The notes below the pieces were generated by a model. The model was given only the letters and a program-made list of their open reading frames with translations. It had not been told where the DNA came from and did not search any database. This document shows positions 26,536-56,000 of a DNA stretch of 64,000 nt, one piece after another; position 1 is the first letter of the stretch, and the number at the start of each line of letters is the position of its first letter. Source of the stretch: Membranipora membranacea (lineage: Eukaryota; Bryozoa; Gymnolaemata; Cheilostomatida; Membraniporidae); the NCBI GenBank assembly GCA_914767715.1, contig OU612066.1, forward strand, positions 25,456,283 to 25,520,282. Direction: 5' to 3'. The position numbers and the translations under genes are program-made.

Positions 26536-29500
26536 CTACAGAGGGGTGTCGACATAGTAGGCGTCGTTACTCACACCATGTTCTTTCCTTAAGGTTTCAT
26601 ATTGATGATCATCCTGCTTGGTGTTCTCTTCTGGTACAGAAACAGCTAATTCGTAACCTGTAGATGTACGCGGGTCCAGTTTGGTGTAGTTATTAGGGTC
26701 GCCCTCTCTTGGTTCCGGAAGTACTTCATAATGGTTTTCATCATCTTGGTTGAACTCAACATAGTTATTACTTTTCTAAAAAAACAAGAAAATGTCTTGT
26801 TAGCTAATTTTCAAAATAATGCTGATAATCACAGCTGTTTATTGCAACCTTTAATGCCAAAAGTCTGAAGTACCCAACTAACAACCAGCCCAAGCACAAA
26901 ACTAAAGCCATCGCGAAGAAAATGCCATGAAGCTGTGGCTATGGTTTACATGGATTGAAAAGGTGGAATTGACAAATAAATCTTCAATCGTTATCAGCAA
27001 CCGTTTTCCCAGGTCTGCACATTAGCCCCGTACAGTACTATGATAAGATGTGGCAAAGATGAATACAACCATTGCATTGAAGACAGATGAATGAAACAAA
27101 GTACGCGAAGCATGTAGAATCAACAAAAATTCTAATTTTCCAAAACCTGTAACCTGAAAATAGAACTGGTGGTCCCAAGATAAAGTAAGTGCTTCCCGAC
27201 AAAATCGCTATTGGAGTGGTTTAGTACTTTAAACCATGCTAAGACCAGTACTACGAAAATATTTACATTTTTCATAGAGAACATGAAAAGCACGTCTGCA
27301 TTCAGATGATCAGATATCAAAACTTACAAATGAAGCTTTTGGAAGTCTCCCTGATGGCTGAAGGTAAACACCAGTTGGTGACTGTGGTATGAGGTATCCA
27401 TTCTGATCAGTCCTTCCTTCCTGTGGAGATGGACCAGCTTCAGGTATGAGGTAGCCGTTACCATCAACTTTGGAGGTTTTATTTTCCAATTGAAGAGTTT
27501 GAGGAACTTGATAACCATTCTGGTCGACATTTGGTGCCAGCGGATCTGACTTTTCATGTCGCCTCATCTCCTCTTCATTAGGAACAAAATATCCGTATTT
27601 ATCCTCCCCTGGAACTGTGTAACCATCGTCATCTACATTATTGTCTCCGGGAAGAGGCAAAGGTCGGCCTGTGATGTCTCCTCCATCCTGTTTAGCAGCT
27701 GGATTGGAGTTTTGTGGGTCGGCTTGTTTTTGGTATCTAAAGAAAACAAACGCAAACATGTTGTAACATAGCAATATATTACATTTAGGAGTAGGAGGTA
27801 GGTCAGTTGGTAAGAGCGCCTGCCGTCTGATACGCATGCATTGGAGGTCTCGGGTTCGAATCCCGCTGCAGTCTACCGACAACTGGGCTCAATCGCTGCC
27901 CAAGGTGTGCTCCGACCTGCCTGCAAACTGAGAGCAACTAGTTAGTGGATATGGTGGCCGCACCCTTAAGGCACCTTTATTTCTCAGTCTTAGGATAAAA
28001 CTTGCAATTTTAACCCACTTCCATAATATCAGTGGATGATCAGGTCTGAGATATATTTTCATCTGTTGGTAAAACCAAGTGATTATTAATGCTTACTTGT
28101 ATATGTTTTCCTTTTCTCTAGCTCGCCTCTTTCTCACAAACATGACGACGACAATGACGATGATTATAATGAGCAAACTGGCACCCGCTGCAACCTGGAT
28201 AATATAAAATACAAAATTTGTTATAATACATTGAGTCCTGAACCTCTTGAGCTACAACAGATCTTCAGATTATTGTAGTAGGTTACAACTCACAACTGAG
28301 AGGAGCGCCATGTAGTTATTATACTTCATCAAGAGCTGAGAATAAAATTTGTATAATATGAGAAACATAAGATTCTTGACCAAAATGTGATATAAACTTA
28401 GGCGCGTGAGCATAGCTTATTTTTTTATGAATGTATCAATTTTGGGGATCAACTTACTGAGATAATAATTATTGTAGTCAATGGCATTCCACCAGCTGGA
28501 CTAGTAGTTGACCACATTGTTGTTGTTGTTTGTGGAAAGGTCACAGGATTGGTCGTCCCTGATGTACTTGATGTGGCTGGACTAGTAGTTGACCACATTG
28601 TTGTTGTTGTTTGTGGAAAGGTCACAGGATTGGTCGTCCCTGATGTACTTGATGTATTGCCAGAACACGCTGAAAGAAAAAAGACGATGATTTCATTTCT
28701 AAACACATTTGAATATGAATTATAAAGGAACGGTATCTATCATACCAAAATGCAATCCTCCAACCACTGTAATGATAACTCGAAGTCTCATGATATGAAT
28801 TAGCTACCATTGTTGTGTTAGAAGTTACATATGCTGTCATTAAGCATTACCAATTTACCTAGACATTTTAATTTGAGCTTACTGTAGAAAGTCAAAATCT
28901 TTTTTTCTCATTTTGAAGTTGTTGATCGATATCATCATTTCACTAATCAAGCGAGAGGACCTTGGGATAGTTCTTGCTCTTGTGCAGATGGATTTACCCC
29001 AAAACTTATAGTTGGCTTTATGCTACCCACACAACTGAAAACACATCCTACACAACAAATCTACAAAATCCACATCAATCACAAACAGCCACAACAATCA
29101 AACTACTCCTAATCAAGCAGCACTGATTAATGGAAGGTACGACCTCACATCACTACAGGCCTGTAGTTCTAGGGGAGGCAAGGAGGCACTGCCTCCCCTA
29201 GAAAGCTAAATACAGTGGCCGAAAATCACTATAGATGGACAATCCATGTCAGAATCAGCTCCTCTGGGATTTCCACTTGCTAATTATATGCTTGGGGAGC
29301 AGCTTACAGCACCTCAAATGGTGATGCTTCTGACTCGCCTTGGACTTTTGCCTCCCCTATATGTTGTTCTAAACTACGGCCTTGCACTACCTTCTCAGCC
29401 CAAGACCAACCTTGCGGGTTAATGAATTCTGCGCAGCTTTCTAAATTTGATGGATATTTTATTTTGTCTCCATTAGCTGCATTCCATTCTTGTATCCAAG

Positions 29501-32500
29501 CTATGTGACAGCCACATGCAACAGGATTAGATAGCAAGTCAAGGTCTTCAATGGCTGGCAACTTGTCCATCACATCTTCTGACAGCGTAGTCAACAAATT
29601 TCCGTTTAGTTTGAAGTTTTTCACACTGCTGAGAAACCTGAAGAATAAACAGAAATAAATTTTTAGAGTTAATCTTATTAACATAAACTGAAGAACGGAT
29701 CAGCTTTTGGTATCTTCTAGCCTACAGAGTTTCATAAGTTTTCAGTGGTGATAGTTTTAGTGGTGTAATAAGATGTGAAAAACCACTTTGAAAAACATGA
29801 GCAGGCCGAAAATATTCATGGATCAAAATCTAGAATTTGCGAATTTTTCAACTTCTTTTTGAATAAATGTATCACTGAGCATTGGAATTAATATTTAACA
29901 AAAATATTGTTGAAATTGTGCGAAATATCAGAATTTTAAATACATGAGGGTGTTGTCTTGTTCCCTATCTATTTGCACCTATACCTATACATGTTCGAAT
30001 GAAAAATACCTACTTAATATCACCGGAGTTGATTGCACTGATTGAGTTTCTTTGAAGACGTAGATGTTGGAGGTTAGACAAACTGCTCGATCTCAAGAAG
30101 TTCACACTTTGATTTCCACATTCTCGGGCTTCAACTGTGCGAAGGTTTACTTTACCGTTGAACACGTCAGAGTCAACAGTGGTCAGTTCGTTATAGTCCA
30201 AAATCAAACGCTGCAATTAATTATAGCATGTTAAATTTTAAAATCAGCTTCACAAATTCTCTCAGCCTTTTAGAGGTGACATTGTCTACAAATACTTGCA
30301 AATACTGAATGGTGCAGCATAATGATGGTTGTGAAGTGAATAGAATATACAAATGAACAATCCCCACCTCTAGACTTGCGAGATGGCTACTGACACGATT
30401 ACCATCACGGAGGAAATCTAGATTCTTCAGCAGAGAGTTGCTCATCTCTAAGTTATTCAACTCAGTGAGATTCGAGAAATGGCTAGTTCTCACTGCAGAA
30501 TTGTTGAAACGGTTCTCATTCATTGAGAGGGTATGTAATAATGCAAATTTTGTCGATGTCAAGAACTCAGTGGAGGAGATTCTATTGCCTGACAAGTCAA
30601 GCTGCCGCACTCCAGCTATTTTGCTGCAAAAAAAGAAAGATTTTTCATGCTTGCTTTTCCAAAGCTGTGATTTGGATCAAAAAAAGTTGATTAAAATCGG
30701 ATGTCATATCACACGCCTCATCCCAAAGCATGGGCGGAGAAACATTATTTTGCCTTAATGGCAAGGCCGCAATGTCTGCGCCAGCTTTTGCTCCCAGTTT
30801 TCAGGCAGGTCAGACCAAACTCTAGTAGAAGATAGACTGCAGAGGGATTCGAACCCCTGACCTTCTTCACTTGCGTGTTGAAGACGGCGCTCTAACCAAC
30901 TGAGCTACCTCCTACTCCTAGAAACATTGATCCAACATAAGGTAAGGTACGATTTGTTTGAGCAGTTTGAGCCCCTGTACGACTACGGCCCCCAGTTACG
31001 ATTACTGCTTGTCACTCAAATAAATCTTGATTATTGTTGCAATATTCTTTTTTTTTATATGATTGAAAAAAGGAGAATTAGCGCAGTGTTAGCCATGGAA
31101 CGATAAATTCTTAAATATCACAATATGTAAGAATTTTTTCATTGACTTTATAGAGTTTTTTCAATGAATTATATGTCTCAATTGGGACTGGTAGCCAGCG
31201 CTGATGCAGTCAGAATTTTTCCTCTTATACGACATACCTTAGGTCGGAAATAGTAATTTGACTTATATTGTTGCTGTGAAGAAAGAGTCTTTTTATGATG
31301 ATATCTGTCTCTATTTGGGGGAAAGAACCGAGGTTCTTGTTAGAGCAATCTATGGACCACTCTAGGTCAGATTCTTGTTTGCACCATCCGCAGGCCTGAA
31401 ACAAATGATGAATTATGTTGTTAAGTCTGAGTGAGTTAACAGGGCTAGAATAACATGTGGTCTCCGGTAGAGAGGGATAAGTAAATAAAGGAGAGGTATA
31501 CACCCGAGGGTGCTGGGGGCTGGAACAATCAACAATGAAAGCTCCCCCAGTGGGACTCGAACCCACAACTCCTGCGGCACTAATCGCCTGGCAGTGAATA
31601 GCAAGCGCGCTAACCGATTGCGCCATCTCACCATCCCCAAAAAAGAATGGGTCGATGGCGCTAATTAGATAGCCCGCTATTCACTACTCGGAGTTGTGTT
31701 CTCTCATCCCACAGCACATTCCAATCCACCATTGCCACCCTATGAAACACAGCGTACGTGTTAGGGTTATTGGCCTTACATGGCCCATTGCTGGGACCCC
31801 TTGTAGTAGGTTTAGCTGTCTTTCCAGCTTGTCAGCATGTCTTTCCATGCTGTCACATGTCTTTCCATGAGTCAGTCAGTAGACAAGTACACAGGAGAGG
31901 TATACACCCGAGGGTGCTGGGGGCTGGAACAATCAACAATGAAAGCTCCCCCAGTGGGACTCGAACCCACAACTCCTGCGGCACTAATCGCCTGGCAGTG
32001 AATAGCAAGCGCGCTAACCGATTGCGCCATCTCACCATCCCCAAAAAAGAATGGGTCGATGGCGCTAATTAGATAGCCCGCTATTAACTACTCGGAGTTG
32101 TGTTCTCTCATCCCACAGCACATTCCAATCCACCATTGCCACCCTATGAAACACAGCGTACGTGTTAGGGTTATTGGCCTTACATGGCCCATTGCTGGGA
32201 CCCCTTGTAGTAGGTTTAGCTGTCTTTCCAGCTTGTCAGCATGTCTTTCCATGCTGTCACATGTCTTTCCATGAGTCAGTCAGTAGACAAGTACACAGGA
32301 GAGGTATACACCCGAGGGTGCTGGGGGCTGGAACAATCAACAATGAAAGCTCCCCCAGTGGGACTCGAACCCACAACTCCTGCGGCACTAATCGCCTGGC
32401 AGTGAATAGCAAGCGCGCTAACCGATTGCGCCATCTCACCATCCCCAAAAAAGAATGGGTCGATGGCGCTAATTAGATAGCCCGCTATTCACTACTCGGA

Positions 32501-33186
32501 GTTGTGTTCTCTCATCCCACAGCACATTCCAATCCACCATTGCCACCCTATGAAACACAGCGTACGTGTTAGGGTTATTGGCCTTACATGGCCCATTGCT
32601 GGGACCCCTTGTAGTAGGTTTAGCTGTCTTTCCAGCTTGTCAGCATGTCTTTCCATGCTGTCACATGTCTTTCCATGAGTCAGTCAGTAGACAAGTACAC
32701 AGGAGAGGTATACACCCGAGGGTGCTGGGGGCTGGAACAATCAACAATGAAAGCTCCCCCAGTGGGACTCGAACCCACAACTCCTGCGGCACTAATCGCC
32801 TGGCAGTGAATAGCAAGCGCGCTAACCGATTGCACCATCTCACCATCCCCAAAAAAGAATGGGTCGATGGCGCTAATTAGATAGCCCGCTATTCACTACT
32901 CGGAGTTGTGTTCTCTCATCCCACAGCACATTCCAATCCACCATTGCCACCCTATGAAACACAGCGTACGTTTTTAGGTCAAATCCCAAGACAAGCTTAT
33001 CAGTTTTAGAGCAAATCTATCCACAGGAACTATTAAAGTTACATAAGCTTCAAGCCTTTGTAGTTTGAAGATCACAAACACTTTATAACTCACCTGATTT
33101 CCAGGCAGGGTTACTGGGCAAGGTGCTATGGCCACTACTGCACTCACGTACAATAACAGAATAGCCACATGTGATATATACGACAT
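26536..33186 (-). CDS. LRR type I transmembrane receptor with YxxP-repeat and ITAM-like tail
   Basis: Nine coding exons: 33094-33186, 31238-31395, 30368-30623, 30014-30210, 29411-29637, 28458-28669, 28097-28194, 27328-27736, 26536-26775. All have GT/AG borders and all phases agree, giving 1890 nt and 629 residues. Residues 1-20 are a signal peptide, followed by an LRRNT (C-P..ACGWC..IDC). LRRs ('LDLSGNRIS', 'LILDYNELT', 'LRLQRNSIS', 'FKLNGNLLT') run to about 260, then an LRRCT ('NPVACGCHIAWIQEW'). Next come a Thr/Ser-rich stalk (two 27-residue repeats), a membrane span (about 375-401) and a stop-transfer RKRR. The tail has 'RPLPLP' (SH3-ligand-like), YxxP at Y453, Y463, Y489, Y509, Y528 and Y538, then Y566-EVL, ten residues, Y580-TKL (ITAM-like) and Y609-ETL. 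A surface receptor signalling through tyrosine kinases is inferred; the ligand is unknown. An in-frame ATG at 33237 is an alternative start. The donor ending the LRRCT exon (CAAG|GTTGGT) is the weakest junction. Confidence 0.9.
27787..27990 (+). mobile_element. tRNA-derived SINE in intron 7 of the LRR receptor gene
   Basis: The 5' head has pol III box A-like TAGGTCAGTTGG and box B GGTTCGAATCC, about 45 nt apart. It is followed by a non-tRNA body (GACCTGCCTGCAAACTGAGA) shared with the inverted copy at 30.76-30.92 kb. The head cannot form a full tRNA cloverleaf. It lies antisense to the gene, about 50 bp upstream of the 27328-27736 exon. The 3' limit is approximate. Confidence 0.8.
28494..28655 (-). 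repeat. 81-bp exact in-frame duplication in the receptor stalk exon
   Basis: Two adjacent copies of an 81-bp unit encode 27 residues each (core NPVTFPQTTTTMWSTTSP). They are identical over about 80 bp, synonymous sites included. The Thr/Ser content suggests a mucin-like O-glycosylated stalk next to the membrane. Copy number is likely variable between individuals. Confidence 0.85.
30762..30918 (-). mobile_element. tRNA-derived SINE in intron 2 of the LRR receptor gene
   Basis: The minus strand reads GGAGTAGGAGGTAGCTCAGT TGG, box A TAGCTCAGTTGG and box B GGTTCGAATCC, followed by CTGCAGTCTA and the body word GACCTGCCTGAAAACTGGGA. Head and body match the SINE at 27.79 kb, so both belong to one family, here in opposite orientation. 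Confidence 0.8.
31490..32972 (-). repeat. Tandem array of a 404-bp unit carrying a tRNA-derived SINE (about 3.7 copies)
   Basis: The word GGAGAGGTATACACCCGAGG recurs at 31490, 31894, 32298 and 32702, an exact 404-bp period; the last copy stops near 32972. Each unit holds a minus-strand tRNA-like head (about 31545-31634, repeated every 404 bp) with box A TGGCGCAATCGG and box B GGTTCGAGTCC, then a non-tRNA segment. Units differ by only a few bases (one box-A C-to-T in the last copy; CTATTCACT/CTATTAACT), so expansion is recent. The array lies in intron 1 of the LRR receptor, in the gene's orientation. The heads lack a paired acceptor stem and are not functional tRNA genes. Confidence 0.9.
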
Positions 33187-33252
33187 AATGCTTCTTCTTG
33201 AAGGGGTTACCCGTACTATCGCCCTTAATGTGACCATAGTGGTTGGACCTCT
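33187..33252 (-). other. 5' UTR part of the first coding exon of the LRR receptor
   Basis: A good acceptor (ATATTTTGTTACAG|AGG) ends at 33253, so the coding exon probably begins at 33252. A donor-like ACAG|GTATGT at 33711-33710 suggests a non-coding first exon ending at 33712. The in-frame ATG at 33237 would lengthen the protein by 17 residues. Confidence 0.45.
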
Positions 33253-38974: not shown

Positions 38975-41900
38975 ATGACATTCAAAGTTTCATCCTGGTC
39001 AGTGCTGTTGTTTGGATTTTATCTGTGTATACACTGCCTTAAGATTAAAGTTAAACCTCCTAAAAGAAATATCTACCAACTCAGCGGAAAACCTGATGGA
39101 GGATATTATGTCAGTATTGATATAGGTAAGCTATGATACAAAAAAGACTAAAACAATCCTCGCTGAAACATATACTTAATCACTTTTCATCTATGTTTTA
39201 TCATAAGTTGATGAAGATTGTGTTTATCCAAGATTTGATAGTTGTGCTGTTCAGCTGTTCGATATGTGGTATGTAAGCTTGTGTTTCCATCATCATTCGA
39301 TGTTGTTGATGTTGATTCTCTAAATGATAAAAAAGGGAAAGGAAGAGTAACAGCTTTGTACTGCAGCTTATGGGTTTACTATGAGTTTGTGACGTGTTTT
39401 ATTGGCTAAGGATCAGTTACCTAGCTACAGAATTGTCCTCTTTAAATATACTTATTAATCTGCCTATTTTGATTAACAGGGAGTCCACCGCAGCAGCTCA
39501 ATGTTTTGATTGACACAGGCAGCAGTAATTTCGCTATAGCTGCGTATGACAATCCTAACACCACCAAATACTTCCACTATGGAGACTCTACTTCCTTTGT
39601 GGACAGCCATAAAAGTTTTCAGCTGCACTATACTCAGGGAATGTGGGGAGGGAAGCTGGGTAAGTAGATGGATTAAGTTTTTCGATAAGTTTCTTATGTT
39701 CAATATCTAATCAAGGAGATGGTATTCTCTCCCACACCTACAACTGACATGGAGACTATTACTAGACTATTAGCATGTGTATCGCTGATCGTAAGAGTCA
39801 ATTTAGTATGAGTACCTACCATATACCCGCCCCTTATTAGTAAAATTGCACTCGGGTCATCACACCAAATACCTGGTGATGGTACTCATACTAAGTGAAA
39901 TAGTTCGCTCTTTAACGATCAGAAATACACATGCAATAGTATATTACGTTATCAGTGTTATGTCTAATATCTAACCAGGGAGTTGGTGCTCTCTCCAACA
40001 CCTTGAGCTATTTGATAGCTATTTTGTACAAGTAAATGAGGCAAATTACAACAATCCGCCAATTCAATATAACCTGGAATTCCCTGAAAGAAAAGGTCAA
40101 TCTCATATGCAATGTCGTTGAAACTTCCAGAGAATTTCAGAAAGTTGCATTGTGGAGAATCTCCCTGCTAACCTGCCCTATGATGTTGGCACAAGAGACT
40201 GATGTAGTTGGGACTATCACATGTTACTGATTTGCTCGAAATCTTACATTGCCCTTATTAAAAGCTGCTCCTTCCCGGAATTATGTATTATATGCTGATG
40301 ACACATGATATCTTCTCGACCGACCATAACCTATTAAAACAAGAAATTTCAGAAGTTGAAACTTGGTGCATAGCCAATAGGCTCATTCCAAATCATTCAA
40401 AAACGTTCCAAATAATTTTTGAATCGCCAAAAAAAAACAAATTGATTTGATCTCAGGTGTAAAACACTAGAAATTAAAAACTTCACAAAATTTTTAGGCA
40501 TCATACTTGACTCTAATAAGAATCATCTTGGAGACCTCTGCCGAAAACTCAACCTAATTTTAACAATGATGAGGGCAGCTCGCCCTTATTTTGATAAAAA
40601 AGACAATGGTTGACCTGTATTACTCCTTTTTTGTACCCACATTTACTTTATGGAATTGAATTCTGGGGCCATGCCACCGACACAGATCTCAAACGAGTTT
40701 TTATTCTTCAAAAAGCGTGCATACGTGTTATTTTGAACAAAAAACCCAGAGAACATGTCACATCATTTTTTAAAACTTTAGGAATTATGCCAATCCAAAT
40801 GCTTTTCGAATTTTGTACTTTAAAACCCCTTTTAAAAGCATACTCAACTGAGTTCCTGATGAATCTAAAATGCAAAACTTTTTACAGCACTAGAAACAAT
40901 GACTTAAAGTTAAAAAAAGCCAACAACTATCGGGGTGAGAGGTCCTTGTTGTGCACTGGCGTGCCACTGTATAGCAAGTACCTAAAGGGAGTGGAGATGG
41001 GCTCTCAGACTTGCGTGCCCGCGAGCCTAGCTTCCTGTCTGTGGGGGTCTGTGGTGATTTCAGCTGGATGGGGCACTCGTCCTGGGCGGCCTTGCCGGTG
41101 TGTCTTGTACTTGACGTTTGTGCTTTACAGTTGGGCTGCCTACACTCTAGCCGCAGGCTATCAGACTGTCTCTTTGCTTTTTACATATTTCTATTGCAAT
41201 TATTTACGTTTTACGATTCGATTTCTCTTTTCCTTCTCTCACTCAATTGCACTTTATCTATTATATATTATCAATTTTATCTTTCGCAATAAACACACAT
41301 GAAGAAAAAAAACCCACGTGACAGTGTCCATTGGTTCACAACCTTATAAACATTGCAATTTTTTGCGTTCGGAATTCTGAATTTCTTATAATTATAAGAG
41401 TTCGAAAATGGTTTTACAGATCTCCGGCAAGTTTTTTCTGCCTCTGTGTTAGATATACTCTGCTACAGTCAACATACAAGCAGCTCGCAGCCGTAAAAAA
41501 TTTAACAACGGCTTAGAATTGATTTATATATTTTAATATTTAAAGATCCCGCACTGTTAAGCGAGGACAGTCAATACTCTCGATCCCAAAATACTCATTA
41601 TTATTATTATTATTACTGTTTGCCACATCCAAGGGGTTTTCATTTTAGAAGCTTGCACCTCTTTTCATCTGTTAACTTGCCTGGAGAGAGAGAGTAACAA
41701 ATTAAACAGACAAGCACTAGTAGTCAAATTCACTGTGTTTATATTTCAGGTACAGACCTCATGCAGCTTGTAAACGGTACTATAGGACAGCATAAGGTCA
41801 ATGTCACTCTCATCACTGAATCTCAAGAGTTCTTCATGAACGGATCTAACTGGCAGGGAATTCTGGGATTGGGATTCCAAGGAATAGCTCAACCGACTGA

Positions 41901-44900
41901 CAATCCACCAATTCCTTTCTTTGATACACTAGTCAGCTCAGGTATTGATAATGGCAACTCCATCTTGAATATTTTATATCTGTATATATATATTGTGAGT
42001 GTTAATGTAAGTCTATCAGTTGAGACCCTATTGAGTTCTGCTCTGATCTGTGAAAGTTGAGGTGTGATAATCTAACGAATTGGCTCATGTGGATTAGGTG
42101 TGTGTAGAATCAGAGACGATAATGTATGATATGATATCCAAACCTTTTCTGACTCCCCTATTTCCTGACATTATATCATCTCGTCCCTATGTGAGTTTTC
42201 ATATAATATGTCAAATTGTGACAAAAGGAAACCAAATCCAGATACCGAAGATTTTCAGTGTATGATTTCCTCAATGTATATTGATACCGAATGTTTCTAT
42301 TTGATCAAACATGTTAAGATTTAAGATTCTTTAAAATATATAAGAGTAAAATAGTGATGAGGCCTACATATCGCAATAGCTTTGACAATAGTTGTCTTTA
42401 AGATGGGGGCATTGATTTCACTTCAAATTTTTCAGGTTCGGTGACAAATGGCTTCTCTCTACAGCTATGCGGTCCAGGCGATGGCCCATTCTCGGATGAT
42501 ATACCCGTAGGCGGTAAGCTGACTATAGGAGAAGAAGATCCTACACAGTATACAGGGGATATGTACACTGCTAGCGTAGTGAGAGAAGACTACTACCAGT
42601 TACTGATCACCGATATAAAGGTATGCTATATATTCGAATACAAATTTTTTTATTTTGATACCAAATTGATAGGCTTTTTTCATATTGACTAGTATGGTAC
42701 ATTGCCAATTGAGGAAGACACATTACTTACTTAGCTGTGTGATACCGATCAAACATTTACCATTCCTGTGCATGTTCACTTGGAGCATTTTCGCCAGGGG
42801 AATTCGGCGTGTTGCCCCAAGAACAATTGCTTTATATTTGATTGAGCTCATGCCTTCGGTATGTTTAGTTGGTGTGAGGGGTAAAATAAGAAAAGAACAC
42901 TGTTAGGTTTTGGTGCCAATAATCAAATCCATACCACTGCAATATGGCTGGAATGAGGAACTTGATAACGTCAAGTATGTGTATTCAAGAACTCCTTGGA
43001 ACTCCTTGGTGTATTGGACAACCGACAACATTTTGACATGGTGGTATTAGGATAATTAGCCTATTGTATCAAAATTAATTCAGTTGATGGTATTGTTTAC
43101 TGATATTTCATTTTTTGTTGACATTGACACTTTTCATTTCGATCCCTTCCATATTAATTCAGGTTGACGGGAAATCTCTGGGTATGGACTGTGTCGATTA
43201 TAATACAGACAAAACGATCATTGACTGTGGAACAACAAATCTGAGATTACCCGAGAATGTCTTCGCTTTCTTTACTAGCTTCCTCAAGAATGCGGTGAGA
43301 TACTCTCTTCCACAACTTATGTTGGCAAAGATTGTCTCAAAATATACAATTGTCAAGGAGTAACAGAACAATAACTGTTACTCCTTGGTATTGTCAATGC
43401 CCTGTATTGCAAATTTGAAAGTTGAATGAAATGGTGAGAAGATTTGGACTCGTACTAATAACCTAGTTTTATTTTCCTACGTAATCTGCAACAAGATTTT
43501 CTTGGTAAAAATCAATATAACACTGGTCATCAGATTCACAATTATCAGAATTTAATTCCAAAGGAAACGCAAGTTTGTTTTTACGATTAACGCATAATCG
43601 GGCCTATAAAATTCGGAGGCATTACACTTTCATAAATAAGAATCACAATCTTGGGTGCTCCTGCACTGACCACTATTGTATTAACTTAACGTCATGCCTC
43701 GCCTAGGATACTAGCTTGAGAAAGAAGGCAGTAGCGTTCCATCATCGACCACTTTCACTAGTGGCTGATAATAAAACACGACTACCAGTTATCCCGGCAC
43801 AGTTAAAGTGCTCAATATACTATCATACTTGTTTGCCAGGAAGAGCAGCTAGTTCAATCCGTTATGCATGCATAGAAATTTAAGTCTGCCCAAGTTTTTG
43901 ACAACAGAATATTACCAAATCAAATTGCATGGATTGATTTTTTACTGGTAAATGTGATGCGATGGGTCCTTCAATAGAAACACTATTTGTTTCCTTGATA
44001 AAACCAAGGTCAAGCCGGAGAGGGCCGTTCACATTTTATCGATCATGGTGGTTATGAAGGCATAATGATTATTTTGCCCTATACTCTACCTGTCAACCCA
44101 AGTAGCACAGTGGAATATTTGACTATAAGGTTGTACATATTCGCTGCTGGAATCAAGTTGTAAATCTAAGTTTTGCCATATCACATACTACCTCCAAATT
44201 ACTTCAACCCTTCTCTTCTTTAAAGTTTTCTCCTCTCTCCATCCAGGTTGAGCCGCTATCTAACGACACGTGGTCAATGAAGTTTTGGACTGGAGTTGAC
44301 CCGATATGCATGTTTCATTCAGATGATGGCGCTCTCTCACTCTATCAAAAGTTTCCTGTCATAGAGATAGACTTATACACAGCAGACTATAAAGCCATAA
44401 CCTTGGCCATATCCCCTCAGCAGTACCTCAGACCTGTAGATCTACCTGGGGAACCTGCCAAGGACTGCTATAAAGTAGGAGTGACAAGCTCCACTCAAGG
44501 CACTAATATAGGTAATAAAATGATAATCAAGATTTCACAGAGAGGAATTGTCACAAAAATTGGCAGGCCTTTTCATATAGCTTATGTACCATAACTCTTG
44601 TTCAATGTTGTGGGAAACGTGAGAATTATAACTCAAAATTGATGTAATACCTGCTTCCATCACCAGCCATTATTCTTCAGTGTAAGAGAAGGTGTCCTAA
44701 AACCTATGATTACCTATAAAGGTCCTGTTTGTGAGGTTTTCCTAGAAGACAAATAATTACTCTCATGTCAAGTGGAAAAGTCTTTACCTCAACCGAATTT
44801 TATTGTGTTTGAACATTTTGTGGCCATTTTTCCGCTTCTCATACATACACATGTTATGGTGACAAAGTGACCAAGGTATGTAAAAGAATCTTTTTCACAC

Positions 44901-45622
44901 AACATGGTAGTAGTGATTTGTCTTTCTGGCCGACACCACATACGGGCGATTTAAGAGGGTATACCATATTATGATGAGTTTGAGCTTCCAAAGTGATCAG
45001 ACCTATGCTAACGTGTTAGCTCAAATTCTGGGCTAAATAACATTGTAGGAAGAAAATTGTAATCATGCACCCCAGCGAAAGTTCTATTCTGATCATTACT
45101 GCGCATCGGCTTTCAAGAAAATGATGATATGAAGCATAAGTTAGTCCAACATGGTGAGTTTGTCTCAAACACATGGTTAGTTTTGCCCCCAAGTCTTGTC
45201 CATTCTTGGGAAGGGTCATGTTTATAAGGTAATAAGGCAATCTTCTATCAGAACATTTTTATGTCTTAGGTGCTGTGATTATGGAAGGGTATTATATCTA
45301 CCATGACAGAGAAAATAAAACTGTGAAGTTTGCTCAGACGACCTGCCCGTCACGTATAGCAGGGGCAGCTGTGAGTACAGTGCACTCAAACAGTAACAGC
45401 ACATGGACTAAATCTCAATGTACTTTTGTACGTAAAACTAAAAAGACAGTGCCGTCGTGGGCTATTGTTCTCATCACCGTGTTTGCCTTTTTATTGACGT
45501 TACTGATAGTTGTTGGTGCAATTAAATTAGTTCGAAATCGGAGGAAAAATAAGGCAAGACAGCTGAGGAATGATATCGATATCCATGATCTCATGGACGA
45601 CACATTCGACACAGAATACTAA
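38975..45622 (+). CDS. Membrane-anchored BACE-like aspartyl protease
   Basis: Seven coding exons: 38975-39125, 39480-39659, 41750-41941, 42436-42620, 43163-43294, 44247-44511, 45270-45622. Phases join to 1458 nt, 485 residues (human BACE1 has 501). Residues 1-20 are a signal peptide, then a short basic pro-segment (KPPKR). The pepsin-type domain has first Asp D62 (IDTGSSNFA), flap Tyr Y101 (HYTQGMW), 'NGSNWQGILGLGF', and second Asp D257 in IIDCGTTNLRLP. All six BACE-type cysteines are present (LQLCG, MDC, ICMF, DCYK, TTC, SQC). A membrane span (about 431-456) and cytoplasmic tail follow; DIHDLM could act as an acidic dileucine-like sorting signal. A type I endosomal/Golgi sheddase is inferred from the family. 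Cys258 replaces the usual Ser/Thr after the second catalytic Asp, so activity needs proof. BACE1 versus BACE2 orthology cannot be assigned. Confidence 0.95.
39699..40002. mobile_element. About 180-bp MITE bracketed by 40-bp direct repeats, protease intron 2
   Basis: Inverted arms 39766-39817 (CTATTAGCATGTGTAT, CTGATCGTAAGAG, TTAGTATGAGTACC) and 39890-39945 (reverse complement) enclose about 70 bp. Diverged direct repeats (ATATCTAA(T/C)CA(A/G)GGAG, TCTCTCC.ACACCT) flank it at 39699-39742 and 39963-40002. These are too long for an ordinary target duplication; the MITE may have entered a pre-existing repeat, or the flanks belong to a composite element. Confidence 0.6.
40288..41308 (+). mobile_element. 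5'-truncated LINE fragment (reverse transcriptase) in protease intron 2
   Basis: A YADDT catalytic motif (40291-40305) is followed, after a one-base frameshift and stop, by 'ETWCIANRLIPNHSKT', the usual RT thumb entry. A later frame holds 'LLYGIEFWGHA' and 'LQKACIRVILNKKPREHV', typical of Jockey/CR1-like ORF2 C-termini. The 3' end carries AATAAA and a short A-run near 41290-41308. Frameshifts and stops show it is dead. It lies in the same orientation as the protease gene. Confidence 0.85.
41597..41614 (+). repeat. (ATT)6 microsatellite
   Basis: Six ATT units in protease intron 2, just 3' of the LINE fragment. Confidence 0.8.
43348..43399. repeat. CAAGGAGTAACAG hairpin element
   Basis: CAAGGAGTAACAG and CTGTTACTCCTTGG face each other across about 8 nt, with outer TTGTC/GACAAT arms. 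A second copy of the same hairpin lies at 47849-47901. It sits in the intron after the exon carrying the second catalytic Asp. Confidence 0.7.
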
Positions 45623-47061: not shown

Positions 47062-50000
47062 ATGAAGAAGTCGCCAATGATGCATCAGCTTATCCTGATT
47101 GGTAAGTAGGTTTCCTCTTGACCAATACACCCATGTGATACAGAAGTGACTTAAGGACAATTTTTATATTGCGAACACCCACCAATACGATAATCATAAA
47201 TTCGGTACTGTTGTCGACCATAGCAGCAGAACATTCTTTGGTGTCAATGGACTTTGGTGTTAGATCACACCATATGTATCAAAAAGATTCTTAGTCCGGC
47301 ACCTCCCCAAAGTACAAAGATCACTCTATTTGCAATGCAAGGCAAAATGCTGTAATGTAAATCTGTAGCAGTGTCTAGGATTTATATAAGATATGGAAAT
47401 ATTGATGTGTATAGTTCTGTTCCTCACTGACGAAACTGAGTTCTAACATTTTAGATCTATTTTAGGTGTAGCTGTGATCGCTTCATGCGCTATGAATATC
47501 AGCGTTAATGAGGCTCTGTGTGGTAACTGCTTCCATGGCGAAGATTGTGAAGACTATGGTGAGACCTCACAATAGTTTTGATTATTCATCACTGCATAAA
47601 ATCTCTGTTATTGTATGCAGTTACTGTTACTGTTATTACTAAACCATAGATATAAATATCAAAGTATTTTTTAGACTCGGTTCTGTTGTGACCAATGAAC
47701 TAAACCTCTGTCATTGGTCACATATCCTCCAATCATATATCCTCCAATCATATCCTCCAATCACATATCCTCCAATCATATAGAGTGATCTTTATGATTG
47801 GAGGTTTAGTTCATTGTTGTGACATCAGTTTGGTTTGGCTGAGCCTAATATCACCAAGGAGTAACAGTAACTGTTACTGATTACTGTTGCTCCTTAGTAT
47901 CAAATGTAACATTCGTAGGAAGGGGGTGGGTGATTTTCATTAAAAAACAACTGTGCCTTCCAGGGGCTGTATTCTAAAAATTTTCACTCACTGACTTTTT
48001 AGAGATGAGCATAATGATCGGGCGCTGCCCGATCCACACGGCGTAGGCGGGGAGGGTGTGGGAGGGGCGCTTAAGCGCCCTCCCACCACGGAAATTTTTG
48101 CATATCGGTAGCAAAATAGTGCAAGCAGAGAGGTATTTCAATAGCTCACTGAGGTATTTCAATAGCTCACTGAGCTGTTGGGTACTTTCAGAAAACAACT
48201 CAATAGCAGTAGAAGATTACAGGAAAAATTTTGAAAAAAAAAAGCTGCCCTAAATGGGATTCGAACCCACAACAATCTGATAAACAGTGATTATAAAGCA
48301 GACGCTCTACACACTGAGCTATTCAGTCACTCACGGAAATCTGTGGGCCGTGAGTGCTAATATACGCCACTGGTGCCTTCCATATACTTTTTAGTATGAA
48401 TACCTCCTCTTTTCAACCCTTCATCAAGTCCCAATTATCGCTTCCATTTGATCGGTAAGCCTAGAGCGGGCTAAAAGGGAGTGCAATTTCGAATGCATCA
48501 AGTTGGAGCAAACTTTGCTTCAACCCAACCTTCCCCAGCCCCTCAAACACTGTTTATTTATTGATAGCTTATTATAGCCACTGTTGCCATTCCACAGTCA
48601 CAACTATCTCTATTGTAGGCAACAACCATGTGCCAAGGTTTGTACAAAAATCTGCTAAAGTGGTTCTCACCAAACAATCCAGCAATACTGCTGTCTACCA
48701 GGCGAAGGCTTACGACCGTGATCTCCGCTCATGTCGAGATAAGCTGGAGCCATGTCCGTGTGCTGAGCTGATCTACTTTATCGTGGAGGATGAGAGCGAG
48801 AGTATGAGAATAGATGAGAAAACTGGAGATTTAGCGGTGGACATCGATTTAGTTGATGATAATGAGTTTGGTATGTTTTTTTATTTGATGCAATGAGGTT
48901 TTGTCTTAGGTTGATTAGTGCACCCAATAATGTAAATTTGAGAATGTCTACTCACATATTTCAGACTTGTTGAATTTACCTGTAATTTTACCCTCTGATA
49001 GCTCACAATGCCAAGAAATTCAACTGTGGATCTATATGATTGGACAATTAGCAATTGCGTAGATCAACAGTTTTGTTCTTGTCTGCTTCCTAATTAAAAT
49101 CTAGACACTGACCTTACATATATAACCACCAACATGTAAAAGTAATTTCTGAACTGTTTTAAAAAAAATTCATTTTGGTTACCCTCTTCATATGCAACCT
49201 GAATTCAGAGTTACCATATGCTCTGTGATGTCACTATGATACAGCTGTGTACAATTTCTGTTGCTTCAAAAGTACCATTTTGCTGTACTTGCAGATGTGA
49301 TACTAGGTGTCCGTAATTCAGGGGAAGAAGATTACAGCACGATGACCCTGACCTTCATCGCTGTGGGCCTAGACGGACTGCAAGTAAGTATGGAACAATA
49401 TCGGGTCAGTAATTAATTTATTTACAGGAATCAGTAGTGATTAATAATAGATAAAAACCAAGTCGGTGGGATCAGCTCATCAACATCTACAGTTTTTCAC
49501 CATGAGTCTGTATCTGGAAGTTCATCAGTAATCATGTATAAGGGTTAAACCCTTTTTGATTTAACTAAAAAGCAAGTTCCACGGGTATTTTTATCGTTTA
49601 GTCTTATTCAGGAATATCTATTAAATCTATGACTAAATCTTCGTCACAGAGTGGGCAAACACCATAGGCTATATAATTATATATATAGCATATGTATATT
49701 ATCTCATAAAGAAAAACACTAGAATTCCATGCGATGAAATTCACCATGAATTATAGCACAAGATCTCTTTCTGCTTTTGTGATATGGGATTTTTTTAAAG
49801 TATTAAGATTTAATAATTTTTGACGTTGTGTTATGGTGATCATAGCCTCCCAAACACTGGGTTAGTCATTTTAATTTCGTTTGAATAAACATATACGATG
49901 AGTCTGTGATAGTATATCAACTTCTACTGCAATTTTGATACAGGCTTACTACGATCCCTTTTCAAAATTGTTATTATTATCGAATATTGGTCAAGTATAC

Positions 50001-53000
50001 GGCAACTTTTATCATTGCTGCCAGAAAATCTCACAGATTAGTAATAAGTCAAATCAGTGAAAGTTGCAACCAGGTTTGACTTGTGTTAAAATAGCCGTGT
50101 AGATACTTAATACTGATTCGGAAACACTTGTGTTACATTAATCAATAAACCTTTCATTTTTCAAGAGAATTTTATGTTAATCCGCTGTTTTCATATTATG
50201 AACTTTTGTGAATTTCTTTTTACCATAATGTCCATAACTGTATAAGAGTGAAGGTATGCCAAAATGTACATCATGCCCAGTTGACTTGATATCTCAATTA
50301 TTCTAATTATTCATTGGCAGACGAATTTGCAAGTTGTTTTGTTGGAATTGGAACAGTTCTGGCGCTGTAGTGCTTCCCCCAACCAAGCTGCAGCTTTGAA
50401 ATTCAAGCTTACGCAGTCATATATTCCAGTATTATGGTTTTGGCAGACACAGACCTAGTTGGGAAGAGATGGCCTCCCTTGTTCCATTGCATTGGTAGCC
50501 TGAGTTTCCAAGTTGTTTTGTTGGAGCAGTTCTGACTCGGTAGTGTCTCCCCCTACAAAGCAGCTTTGAAAGTTGAGCTCACGCAGATATATATATTCAT
50601 TTTTTCTGGTTATAACAGACACAAACCTTGTGGGTAAGAGATGGTCTCGCTTGTTGAAATGTTTTTGACCTTCTCTGTCCTGATGTCCATTATGGACTTT
50701 CATTTGAAGTTATTAGTATTGATTTTATTTATAAAATGATATCGCATGAATAGAGTTGAGAAAATGAGAGGACGGAGTTTGAAAGCAGCTAGACACCGTT
50801 TCAATCAGTCTCTCTGACCAAACTCATTATATGGTTTCCTGCTGCCTAATTGATATTTCAGAGCTGTGATGCAAATCCATCTCTCTTGAATAATAGTTTC
50901 ATTCCAAGCAATGATTCGCCAGACTTTTGTTGAGAGGCGTGCGATTAGTCCCTTACCAAGCCATAAGAACCTGAGCTAAGTGGAACGCAATCCCTTTTTG
51001 CTTTAATTATTTTTCCACCACCATCTTCTTTATTAATTACTTTAGAAGGAGCAAGGCTCTAAGATGGTATCAGACCTGAAGGCAGCTGATGAGACAAGAG
51101 TACCAGGTAGAGGAAATGATAATAGAAAAACTAATAACGGAGAAAAGTATGACTCGCCTTTGGAGAAACCCAAATCACGAAGGAAGAGAGTAAGTAACAT
51201 ATTATTAGGAATGAGAATTTTGTCAATGCTAAACATATTACTTCGAATTCGAGTTTGATCTTACTCTATTCTACTGATAAGTTTTTGGGTCCATATGCAG
51301 TTTTCTTGGGTGTTATTTTCTGGCACCGGAAAAATGATGGGTATCTGTGACGACCATATTTTTAAAAGACATGGGTTACAGTCTGCTGGATTAGACCAGC
51401 AGCCATGCCCAACATGAGATATTTTACCAAATGATCATTTCAACAGCCAAATGAGGCATTTTATGCCAACTAGCATATTGAAAAAAATCAAGCCCTCAGG
51501 TCAGCAGTGACATCGGAAATGTACCTGATACAGACAATGTCAATAATCCATTAGTATTTACCAATATGGCCACCACCATCACCCTATTACTCTACTTCTA
51601 CTACATCTTAATTACAAGAATTGTGTTTATTGCCACCCTAAAGCTGATAATTTTATGATGTAGTAGCGTATAGACCCAGGAAAGGTGGAGTGGCTGCAGC
51701 AAGGTAAATTGGTGTTGAAGTTGTCCTCTTACATTACGGCAACACACAACTCCAATTTGTCAATCAGGACGTTCATGTCTTCATGCAGTGCAGGGAGGTC
51801 CCACCCTCCCTGGTTCATGTGATTAGAACATTCCCAGTCGTAATATTCCAAAACCCTACACCCTATTAAAATTCTCAAAACAGTTCTTAATGACTGCAGC
51901 TTAGTGGTAAATGATGGGGTGGTCGAAGTTTGTCCAAAGAGCTTCCTCTTAAACTGGATATGTAGCCTTAGATTCAGGCCAAAAATTATATACTCTGATA
52001 TATGCAAATGATTTGTCTGAATTTCAGGCTAGTTGCTACTTCATCTGAACCTTATGTGATGGGTATTCAATTTTATACAACGGCTGCATCGTTTATTGCC
52101 AGTGATAGAAAAGCCACCGAATTGGTGTTGTCTCAAAGTTCTCATTGTGAAAAAAATTAAATCATAAGCATGAAAAATCAAATTTCACTTTTCACTCAAA
52201 GAAGGATCAGGTAACGCTTTATGACAATACCATTGCATACACAACCATTTAGGATCGAGAGTATGAAGACCTTCTCCTCTCTGAATCCATCTTCTATTTG
52301 ACCTTGAAATCTCCTGTCTTACTCGAGGATCGGAGGCTAGAAAGTGTTCAGCTAACTTGTAACTTGCTGTCTCCTCTCCACACTGATCCAACGCCTCGTC
52401 TCGTAGGAGATTGAATGCTTTGAGTCTCTTCTGAAGCTCTTTGTTGTTTGAAGTCATAGCTTCAAATTTAGGTTTGATGTGTTGATAGAATTTCTCTTCG
52501 CCTGATGTCATGGCATGTTCTTTAAGAAGTTGCAGCTCCCCCGGTGGGATATTTTTACTTTGTGTATAGCATTTGCTTGTGGACCAATCTTGATTTTTAG
52601 AGCATGGCTCGTACATGAAATCACAGACACTCATTTGCGCGTCTATCGATAAAAGCATCAAAGAAATATCCATCATTTTCTGGCTGTCAGAGGTGAGCAT
52701 AAGCAAGTGTTCTGATAGTCTCAAAGCTGTTCCGATATCCTTGGAAAGCAAGACATGAGGAGGTTGGTTTGTATCACAAAGGCCTGTGCTGCAGCGCAGA
52801 TAGGATTCTAGTGTTGCTTTTGACTTAGAGCGTTTGTAATGGTGATATCCGCTCCATAGTCTATCAATAGGGTTTCGTATGAACATAAATTCTACTGCCT
52901 CCTTGCAATAATATTCATAGCTTGATTTCAGAGAGGCATTGTGCAGTTTGTTATAGAACTCGCTGGGGGGATGATACGTACCGACAACATCTACGCATAT

Positions 53001-56000
53001 TTTAGGCTTAGATCTAATACTATCTATCCAAGTTCCGACTCTGCCAAGTTCGAGATTATACAGATATGCATACATTGAGAGGAGAGACCCAACAGTGGTG
53101 CTGCCAACTTTGCGAGGCTTCACGAAAGCTAGAGTCTTGGCATCAGGGTTTTTATAGGGCTCCGGTATCATGGATATGTCTCGCTTTGTTTGGTAGATGC
53201 TGGCTGAACCCTTTAAACTTGTTGGAGGCTTTTTTGGAAGACTCCTTTTGAGTTCTACTAACACTGTACTCATACTTGTCGTGAACGCGGAGCTGTTTGA
53301 AGAAGAGAAGACGGTCTCTGCCATGTATTTAATCCTCTCTAACCTGCCGCCCACATTGAGTTTAAGAAACTTATCAATATTCCATTGCTGTTGATTCTGC
53401 GGGACATGATGATCTATAACCTCCTCCGGAATCACTTCAAGCACTAAACTGGAGTTTGTCGAGTTTATAGTCAGTTTATCACGGCTTACATCCATAGCTG
53501 CTGTTCTTGGAGTGAGATGGAAGGAGTAAGAGTAGATGCAGACAACTACTATTTCTGTGACAACAGCAATCCAGAATAAGGTAGCCTTTGAGCACATCTG
53601 GAATAGTAAAATAATGAGTACTTGATTCTAACGTGGATACATCAGATCTCGTTTACTTGTTTACCTTTAGAAATGACGCAAAATCAATGGAGAGCAGCAT
53701 CAGTTGTATCATATATCACATGGCCGGGTGAAAAGGCTAGTATCATGGCATTTCAGACACATCATAAATATTTAGTGTCTATTATAGCCTTAGACTTCAT
53801 AATTATTACTATTATATGATTAAACCTCTAAAGTTGATCTATTTGCCAGTTGAACTTTGTCAGTGATAAGAATGCTTATTCCTAGACTTTCTTCATTCCT
53901 TGTCGAGTAAAATCTCCAACTTATTTCTTCATGATGACAAAGTTTATTAGTTTATTTTCATTTTGTCTATGCGCATTATCACTTGGTATTGAACTAAGTT
54001 CATGGCAAACAACCTGAGCCCCAGACTCTTGCCCCCTCCCCCCTCCGCCCCCCCCCTCCGCCCCCGGGAGAAGATCTGGTATTAAAAATACTGCATCAAG
54101 CCCTTGCTGCAAATCACAAATCATGTATATATGGTGTGAAATATTACCAAACCTAATATAGAATAAAAGTTACCTTTTTATAATTGCTAGTATAATTTCA
54201 GTCTTCTGAGCGTTTCACCTCTCTAATCACCTCCTGTAATTGAGTACAGAGTGCTGACTGACTGTAAATATAAATGCTCTATATTTCAAATGCCATTATA
54301 TTGTTTGGATATTTACACAATAATAATGCCCAGATCATTCACGCATTAGATTTAATATTCAATTGAAATCAATAGTTAGTTATATGGAAGGACCATTTTG
54401 GTAGCATTCATCTTAGGAATTTTTCTCTTAGCATTCATCTTAGCATTTCTCTTAGAAATTTTTACTTGGCTTGGTGCTTGGCAGTTTACCAAGTAGGCAA
54501 GAGTTTGGTTGGCTCATACTAAAGAATCTTTATCATCAACAAGAAATCAGTACAGGTTTCTAATTCCGAATTGTCACGATTTTGTATACAGTGTTAACAG
54601 GGCTACAATTAGTGAAATAACTAGTACATGGTTAAGCTGCAGTAGAAAATATTGAGAGTGAGTTGATGGTCGTGATCAATTTCATAACTGTTGTAAGACC
54701 GCAATTAAAGTGGTAAATATCACAATACAACTGTGAGCTATTAGACTTGAATCAGTCTCTCTCTGAATGACATGAAAATACACAAGGTATTGCTATCCAA
54801 TGACCAAATACAGCAAATGCAATGCAATGGCTTTACAATAGTAATACATAACAGAAATACTTACCACGTTGCTGATGTTAGACTGTGCTGTGATGGTATG
54901 ATAAATACGCCACATCTTATAGATGGTGTTGTACTAGTCTAAGTGCTCAGAAGTTTGATAGCTTGCGCAAGTAACTCCCTGCGCCTTGGAGTCTGAGCAC
55001 TTAGACTAATGTGGTACCGGCTACTAGCCTAAGTACATTATTCTCAGTTGTACTTGGTGTATAAAGCTAGCTGCAGATCATTAGACCAGCAACTACACAT
55101 AATTTGTAATCTGTACTTATAAACCTATCCTTTATCCAAATAACATATGTTAACAATAACATATTAATGTTTTGAAAAGAAATGAAAACGAAATCCTCTT
55201 GAAAATTGAAGAAATTACATAGCATTAGACCAAATATTGATAAATGAAGTGAAATTAAGTTAAGCTGAAATGACTGTGCAATAGAGCTATTATTTTATTT
55301 TATTCGTTTCACGCTTCCATTGCAATGACTGCTCTATAGAATCCGTAACTCATGCTACAAATAATAGCACCAAGAAAGCAAAATATCAAAAGAAACATAA
55401 GGGTGCTGCAATTAGTATTTATTGTATGAAAGTTATTTACCCTTGTATCAATGGTGGACAACTTCAAATAAAAAGATCTATTAAAATTGGTATACATTTA
55501 GAGAATGGTGACTTTTGACTGTTAATATTTAACTTTATATTATTGCTTTAGAACTTGAAGCCCAGTGGTACTCTTGCGTAGATGTTTATCCTGATGTTTT
55601 CTTTCACCTGTCACATCAGGTGTTGCCAATTTTGCCATGCACTTTCAAGTTTGTACCTGTTGATTTGACTCTTGACAAAACCATTGCATACAGAGCCATT
55701 TCGCATCTATATTATGAAGCTCTTCCCCTTTGAGCCGCCATCGTTTGGTTTTAGCGTCCATTGTTTGTTTGAGGCGAGGATCGAGTGTCAAGAATATTTC
55801 AGCGTATTTATATCCTGGTGATTCTTTTGAGCACTGCTCCAGCGCTTTTTCTCGCACTCGATAGTAATTCTGGAGACGATTGTTTAGCGCGACGTTATTG
55901 AATATCATTAACTGAAACCTTTTCAGAGCTTCTTTATAAAATTTGGTTTCACCAGTCTTTTGAGCATGTTGGGACAATATTTGCAACTCTGTTTCATCGA

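Follow-up and report, generated by a model that had tools for sequence, protein, structure and literature searches.

A leucine-rich repeat receptor of the bryozoan Membranipora membranacea with a YxxP array and an ITAM-type tyrosine pair in its predicted cytoplasmic tail

Intracellular YxxP arrays and ITAM-type tyrosine pairs are each known from transmembrane proteins. The vertebrate receptors DCBLD1 and DCBLD2 (ESDN) carry 7–8 intracellular YxxP sites and bind the CRKL SH2 domain after phosphorylation by Src-family kinases or Abl, according to excerpts of PMC6029619. Choanoflagellate transmembrane proteins (PTSG_05573 and others) contain cytosolic YxxP repeats that were proposed to be Crk ligands, and the PTSG_05573 peptides tested were pYDVP (excerpts of PMC5043372). 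The motif pYxxP is given as the Crk/CrkL SH2 consensus, multiple sites being thought to raise association (excerpts of PMC5043372 and PMC2689226), and the excerpted review states that at least three YxxP sites are rare among intracellular proteins (PMC2689226). In the Draper–Src42a–Shark system, an ITAM tail is phosphorylated by a Src-family kinase and then read by a Syk-family kinase (excerpts of PMC8092387). Stimulation of Fc-gamma receptors in macrophages leads to CBL phosphorylation, recruitment of CRKL to a YxxP site of CBL and Rac activation (excerpts of PMC4017086).

The gene described here encodes a putative receptor that can be compared with each of these systems. It shares with DCBLD1/2 a membrane-spanning architecture with an intracellular YxxP array, but its ectodomain consists of leucine-rich repeats (LRR) instead of CUB, LCCL and FV/FVIII domains, and the term ITAM is absent from the main text of PMC6029619. 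Cytosolic YxxP repeats are likewise common to it and the choanoflagellate proteins, whose ectodomains contain DUF5011, C2, EGF and TSP1 domains rather than LRR, and for which the excerpts of PMC5043372 mention no ITAM pair. MEGF10/Draper resembles it in bearing an ITAM-containing tail on a single-pass receptor; however, MEGF10/Draper has an EMI/EGF-type ectodomain and an NPxY motif, whereas the bryozoan tail has no NPxY and a YxxP array instead. The Fc-gamma receptor module couples an ITAM with YxxP–CRKL–Rac signalling in phagocytosis, matching the two motif types found here, although its motifs reside on separate proteins and those of the bryozoan receptor in one chain. YxxP receptors are already known in vertebrates and YxxP transmembrane proteins in choanoflagellates, and ITAM receptors occur in vertebrates as well as in flies.

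The window, i.e. the whole stretch of 64,000 nucleotides that was analysed (C2:25456283-25520282), contains the gene on its minus strand at positions 33186–26536 (chromosome 2). Its nine exons span 6.7 kb, with AG acceptors at exons 2–9 and GT donors at exons 1–8, and when joined they encode an LRR receptor of 629 residues, for which the residue numbers of the preliminary description are kept. Exon 1 (33094–33186, donor GTGAGT, matched by the protein P0001 described below) encodes residues 1–31, comprising the signal peptide, which was judged by eye, and the start of the LRR N-terminal cap. The Cys-rich remainder of this cap and the first repeat follow in exon 2 (31238–31395), and further leucine-rich repeats in exons 3 (30368–30623) and 4 (30014–30210); exons 2 and 3 are delimited by AG/GT borders, exons 3 and 4 match Pfam LRR families in the spliced protein (LRR_8/LRR_4 for exon 3), and all three agree with P0001. 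Exon 5 (29411–29637), placed by the spliced model, Pfam, P0001 and an AlphaFold model, holds the last repeats and the C-terminal cap with Cys 276, 278 and 303, the fourth Cys of which, Cys 312, is encoded by exon 6 (28458–28669). The latter exon otherwise contributes a Thr/Ser-rich stalk, delineated by the spliced model and tandem-repeat analysis, and the start of the transmembrane region. Exon 7 (28097–28194) encodes the transmembrane helix, which AlphaFold also predicts, and a basic stop-transfer segment. The tail is completed by exon 8 (27328–27736), which contains six YxxP sites in a region predicted by AlphaFold to be disordered, and by exon 9 (26536–26775), in which the motif scan placed an ITAM-type pair, YVEF at 555, YETL at 609, the C-terminal residues -TPL and the stop codon.

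P0001, a protein of 646 residues, is encoded on a JGI contig whose length is 2,514 bases. It is identical to the spliced model across all 629 residues with the single exception G575D, and has 17 additional N-terminal residues, contributed by translation from an in-frame ATG further upstream at position 33237. Since the contig is much shorter than the 6.7-kb gene, a spliced product exists, and the contig itself is best explained as a cDNA. The nine-exon model, the 629-residue product, its 228-residue tail and all tyrosine positions listed in the preliminary description were reproduced, and the joining of the LRR exons to both tail exons, the absence of which would have refuted that description, finds independent support in P0001 on this short, transcript-like contig.

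Two repeats were observed within the gene. An exact 81-bp tandem duplication (28495–28655) in coding exon 6 doubles a segment of the Thr/Ser-rich stalk and is also present in P0001. Intron 1 contains a tandem array of a 404-bp unit (31489–32971; 3.7 copies, 99% matches), three copies of which score as tRNA in Rfam, so that the unit is perhaps a tRNA-derived, SINE-like repeat.

In the Pfam analysis, the receptor matched LRR_8 (4.1e-17) and LRR_4 (1.3e-7), and no further family exceeded the cut-off. Its Cys-capped LRR block and one transmembrane helix are those of an LRR single-pass transmembrane receptor. The AlphaFold model, built on a 21-row alignment, shows an LRR solenoid, with pLDDT blocks mostly of 83–98 over the LRR block, and a helix in the transmembrane region (residues 391–436 in P0001 numbering). 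The tail starts at R402, and its pLDDT is below 50 nearly throughout. The Pfam scan of the 629-residue protein (E ≤ 1) detected no TIR domain, the mark of Toll-like receptors, and none of the Ig/FN3 domains of FLRT, LRIG and NGL, the CUB-LCCL-FV/FVIII ectodomain of DCBLD or the EMI/EGF-type ectodomain of Draper, MEGF10 and CED-1.

The six YxxP tyrosines are Y453, Y463, Y489, Y509, Y528 and Y538. The preliminary description had placed most of them in repeats of the form D-x-(N/Y)-G-Y-x-[VI]-P; five of six are indeed framed by D-x-x-G-Y-x-[VI]-P, but the N/Y position did not hold in the first repeat, which reads DDDG. Chance expectation was estimated with 100,000 composition shuffles of residues 409–629 (221 residues). 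At least six YxxP sites arose in 241 of 100,000 shuffles (mean, 1.65 sites), while five GYxxP and, likewise, five Yx[VI]P each arose in 0 of 100,000, the G and V/I positions having been picked post hoc, after the sequence had been viewed. These counts place the YxxP array far outside chance expectation. Compared pairwise, the five repeats are equal at 4 to 7 of 8 residues and at 13 to 18 of 24 bases, and their tyrosines are spaced by 10, 26, 20 and 19 residues. Because synonymous sites differ and the spacing is unequal, they lack the appearance of recent duplicates, and we read them as old repeats that were preserved at the motif.

In exon 9, YEVL (Y566) is followed after ten residues by YTKL (Y580), with YETL at 609 as a third YxxL. 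Commonly used definitions exist for ITAM, ITIM, YxN, YxxM, NPxY, PDZ-ligand and YxxPhi motifs. In the motif scan, residues 563–583 (ENHYEVL-x10-YTKL) fit the ITAM pattern [DE]xxYxx[LI]-x(6-12)-Yxx[LI], and the C-terminal residues -TPL have the form of a class I PDZ ligand, whereas the tail contained zero sites for the ITIM, Grb2 YxN, p85 YxxM and NPxY patterns. A pair of the form YxxL/I-x(6-12)-YxxL/I appeared in 4,187 of 100,000 tail shuffles (4.2%), in 776 (0.8%) when an acidic residue at −3 was included, and in 959 of 100,000 when exon 9 was shuffled on its own. Three or more YxxL/I occurred in 12,634 of 100,000 tail shuffles (12.6%), and six YxxP jointly with an ITAM-spaced pair in 8 of 100,000. 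Since 4.2% of shuffles hold such a pair, the ITAM pair is just suggestive and constitutes weaker evidence than the YxxP array.

Relatives were sought in protein sets, in the literature and in the genome. The tail search covered a set of 5.8 billion proteins, in which Bugula and Watersipora are represented by some proteins at least, and relied on shared 5-residue words; among its 1,562 candidates, P0001 was the only match at E ≤ 10. A search with the LRR part retrieved P0001 and 48 distant proteins of 20–33% identity, and no ortholog besides P0001 was found among its 4,203 candidates. By a crude hydropathy rule, a transmembrane segment was called in 33 of the 48 and none in 15, one call (P0024) being flagged as near the N-terminus. 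None of the 33 carried four or more YxxP sites or an ITAM pair after this segment, the maximum being three YxxP (P0006). The assertion that no standard LRR receptor has such a tail held among these 33 homologues, and the tail search turned up no second protein with the tail among its 1,562 candidates. Among the matches listed from titles and abstract starts of open-licence PMC papers, none described an LRR receptor in which a YxxP array is combined with an ITAM. In viral_contigs, 5 pattern matches were obtained and 0 confirmed as relatives of the receptor.

The M. membranacea genome used for searches comprised 339,339,785 bases in 18 contigs. The full receptor gave 51 rows at E ≤ 1 among the best candidates scored, nine of which were its own exons. 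The remaining 42 align to the LRR or the stalk and transmembrane region, and none spans the tyrosine array; a match at C3:17488414 (31%) extends to P0001 residue 469, just before the first YxxP tyrosine. Eleven loci with further LRR matches were inspected, two of which represent one gene. Exon 9 alone matched only itself in the genome at E ≤ 0.001.

Scanning the genome for SH2 domains yielded 50 exon matches (E ≤ 0.01). One locus (L053) is Crk, with SH2-SH3-SH3 order and CrkL as its best PDB match (E 3.3e-68); among the best 120 of 909 protein matches, its closest relatives were the Crk proteins of the bryozoans Bugula neritina, at 78% identity, and Watersipora subatra, at 75%. At another locus (L052), Pfam identified a pair of SH2 domains together with a tyrosine kinase, and the best match was ZAP-70 (E 1.9e-107), followed by SYK. 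Shark carries ankyrin repeats (excerpts of PMC10253181), and no ankyrin-like frame was seen by eye between the SH2 exons of L052, which is therefore likely to be Syk and not Shark. Both readers proposed for the tail, Crk and a tandem-SH2 kinase of the Syk/ZAP-70 type, are hence present in the same genome. Single SH2 exons match Abl, Src-family kinases, SHP2 and Csk, making Src- and Abl-type kinases candidate writers of the receptor tail.

These observations led us to hypothesize a single-pass receptor that is activated by clustering and docks Crk-class adaptors and Syk within one chain, a reading we hold tentatively, at just under an even chance. The protein would consist of a short LRR ectodomain, a mucin-like stalk, a transmembrane helix and a disordered phosphotyrosine docking strip of ~220 residues, with the YxxP array of exon 8 near the membrane and the ITAM-type pair of exon 9 more distal. 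Binding of a ligand would cluster the receptor, and kinases of the Src/Abl type would phosphorylate the clustered tail. The pYxxP array could then collect several Crk molecules and, through exchange factors of the DOCK/C3G type, act on Rac or Rap and actin, while the doubly phosphorylated YEVL/YTKL pair would engage the tandem SH2 domains of a Syk-type kinase; SHP2 would be a candidate eraser. One chain would thereby perform the job of two proteins in Fc-gamma-receptor phagocytosis, namely the ITAM/Syk receptor and CBL with CRKL on its YxxP site. The spliced open reading frame, the layout of LRR, transmembrane helix and disordered tail, the motif enrichment, the motif kept across diverged and unevenly spaced repeats, the fit of the pair to the ITAM pattern with zero ITIM sites, the partner genes and the precedents of DCBLD1/2, the choanoflagellate proteins, FcgR-CBL-CRKL-Rac and Draper-Src42a-Shark count for docking, whereas the lack of Asp at +1, the Gly at −1, the presence of the pair in 4.2% and of three YxxL/I in 12.6% of shuffles and the lack of an ortholog among the candidates searched count against it.

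The residues around the tyrosines bear on which SH2 domains would read the array. The preliminary description had called it Cas-like, and the tail does carry the YxxP repeats that mark the Cas (BCAR1) family. M. membranacea has a Cas gene of its own, separate from the receptor, on C4 (L055), with an SH3 domain, a YxxP region, a Ser-rich region and CAS_C. In the exon-sized open reading frame holding its substrate region, six of six YxxP sites are YDxP, compared with 0 of 6 in the receptor, where Gly precedes Tyr at five of six sites and Asp follows it at none. BLASTP similarity between this frame and the receptor tail exon was not significant (best E 0.55). While p130Cas/BCAR1 resembles the tail in the YxxP array of its substrate domain, it is a scaffold of the cytosol that contains SH3, Ser-rich and CAS_C domains, and the Pfam scan detected none of these in the transmembrane receptor. 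Homology of the tail to Cas was rejected on the absent Cas domains and the BLASTP result; the likeness stands as functional analogy and fails as kinship, the site grammar also being different. The three loci for the Syk-type kinase, Crk and Cas would be of use for binding tests.

Because of the different grammar, Crk is one candidate reader and others are possible. If Crk reads both the receptor and Cas, it would read two grammars; another SH2 domain of the pYxxP class may be the partner. SH2 domains of PLC-gamma, RasGAP and Nck also accept pYxxP-type ligands, and YLIP-type sites are assigned to PLC-gamma. To our knowledge, Gly at −1 is an untypical context for Src/Abl substrates. The GYx[VI]P array might accordingly be read chiefly by other SH2 domains that prefer Pro at pY+3 (PLC-gamma, RasGAP, Nck or Vav type), with the YxxL sites acting singly, an alternative to which we assign roughly one part in four of our belief. 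Besides the contrast in YDxP usage, the majority of the 50 SH2 exon matches being unclassified speaks for it, whereas the stated Crk/CrkL consensus and the presumed benefit of multiple sites favour Crk.

A somewhat less probable alternative is a scaffold for adhesion or guidance, comparable to DCBLD, FLRT or NGL, in which cell contact would cluster the receptor and Crk would act on actin, the YxxL sites being incidental or tuning Src-family binding, with no immune role. The solved folds nearest to the receptor are FLRT2, the Nogo receptor and NGL, DCBLD1/2 offer a CRKL-binding precedent with their 7–8 sites (excerpts of PMC6029619), and of the two motif statistics that of the ITAM pair is the weaker. 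However, the fold matches have about 19–24% identity and are generic for LRR, so they show an LRR ectodomain and nothing finer; moreover, the genome has a Syk-type kinase, and the pair bears the acidic −3 residue seen in only 0.8% of shuffles. We regard it as improbable that the YxxL sites, instead of forming an ITAM, serve AP-2/AP-1 endocytosis as YxxPhi sorting signals and that the tail governs mainly trafficking. YEVL, YTKL and YETL each fit YxxPhi, but a single sorting signal is usually enough, and the Pro-anchored array, the acidic −3 residue and the ITAM spacing would be left unexplained. Low-complexity drift, which would leave motifs devoid of docking function in a tail that is predicted to be disordered and whose ortholog was not found among the candidates searched, is scarcely credible, given that five GYxxP arose in none of 100,000 shuffles and that the motif was kept across repeats despite differing synonymous positions.

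Returning to the receptor as a dual docking site for Crk and Syk, its role may be immune or phagocytic. It is conceivable, albeit doubtful, that it is a lineage-restricted bryozoan recognition receptor fusing a Crk-gathering YxxP array for actin with a Syk-type ITAM for activation, arms that in vertebrate phagocytes are divided between CBL and an ITAM receptor; colonial animals might use it for engulfment or self/non-self recognition. If true, Syk activation and Crk-driven actin remodelling would be coupled in a single natural receptor, an invertebrate case would be added to the YxxP-bearing receptors of vertebrates and choanoflagellates, and a concrete candidate recognition receptor would be available for a bryozoan. 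A literature search was directed at bryozoans, immune receptors and allorecognition, and none of the matches listed contained the word bryozoan.

Other features were observed elsewhere in the window. Aspartyl protease exons on the plus strand (39473–45622) include one piece matching Pfam Asp at 3.1e-9 and two more at 0.001–0.002, below the cut-off; they are followed by a frame with a transmembrane segment and a short tail, an arrangement that is BACE-like by layout only. A tRNA on the minus strand (48246–48328) scored 41.5 bits in Rfam and was unreported by ARAGORN with bacterial settings. Two long open reading frames on the minus strand (52185–53627 and 55645–57114), mutually similar by eye, matched Sulfotransfer_2 at 2e-6 and 7.4e-4, the second value being below the Pfam cut-off. 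Within a series of reverse-transcriptase frames on the plus strand (59239–61274), the frames at 59239–59898 and 60617–60964 had no Pfam match, and RVT_1 was matched at 59847–60257 (1.8e-14), the element being of the non-LTR type by its appearance.
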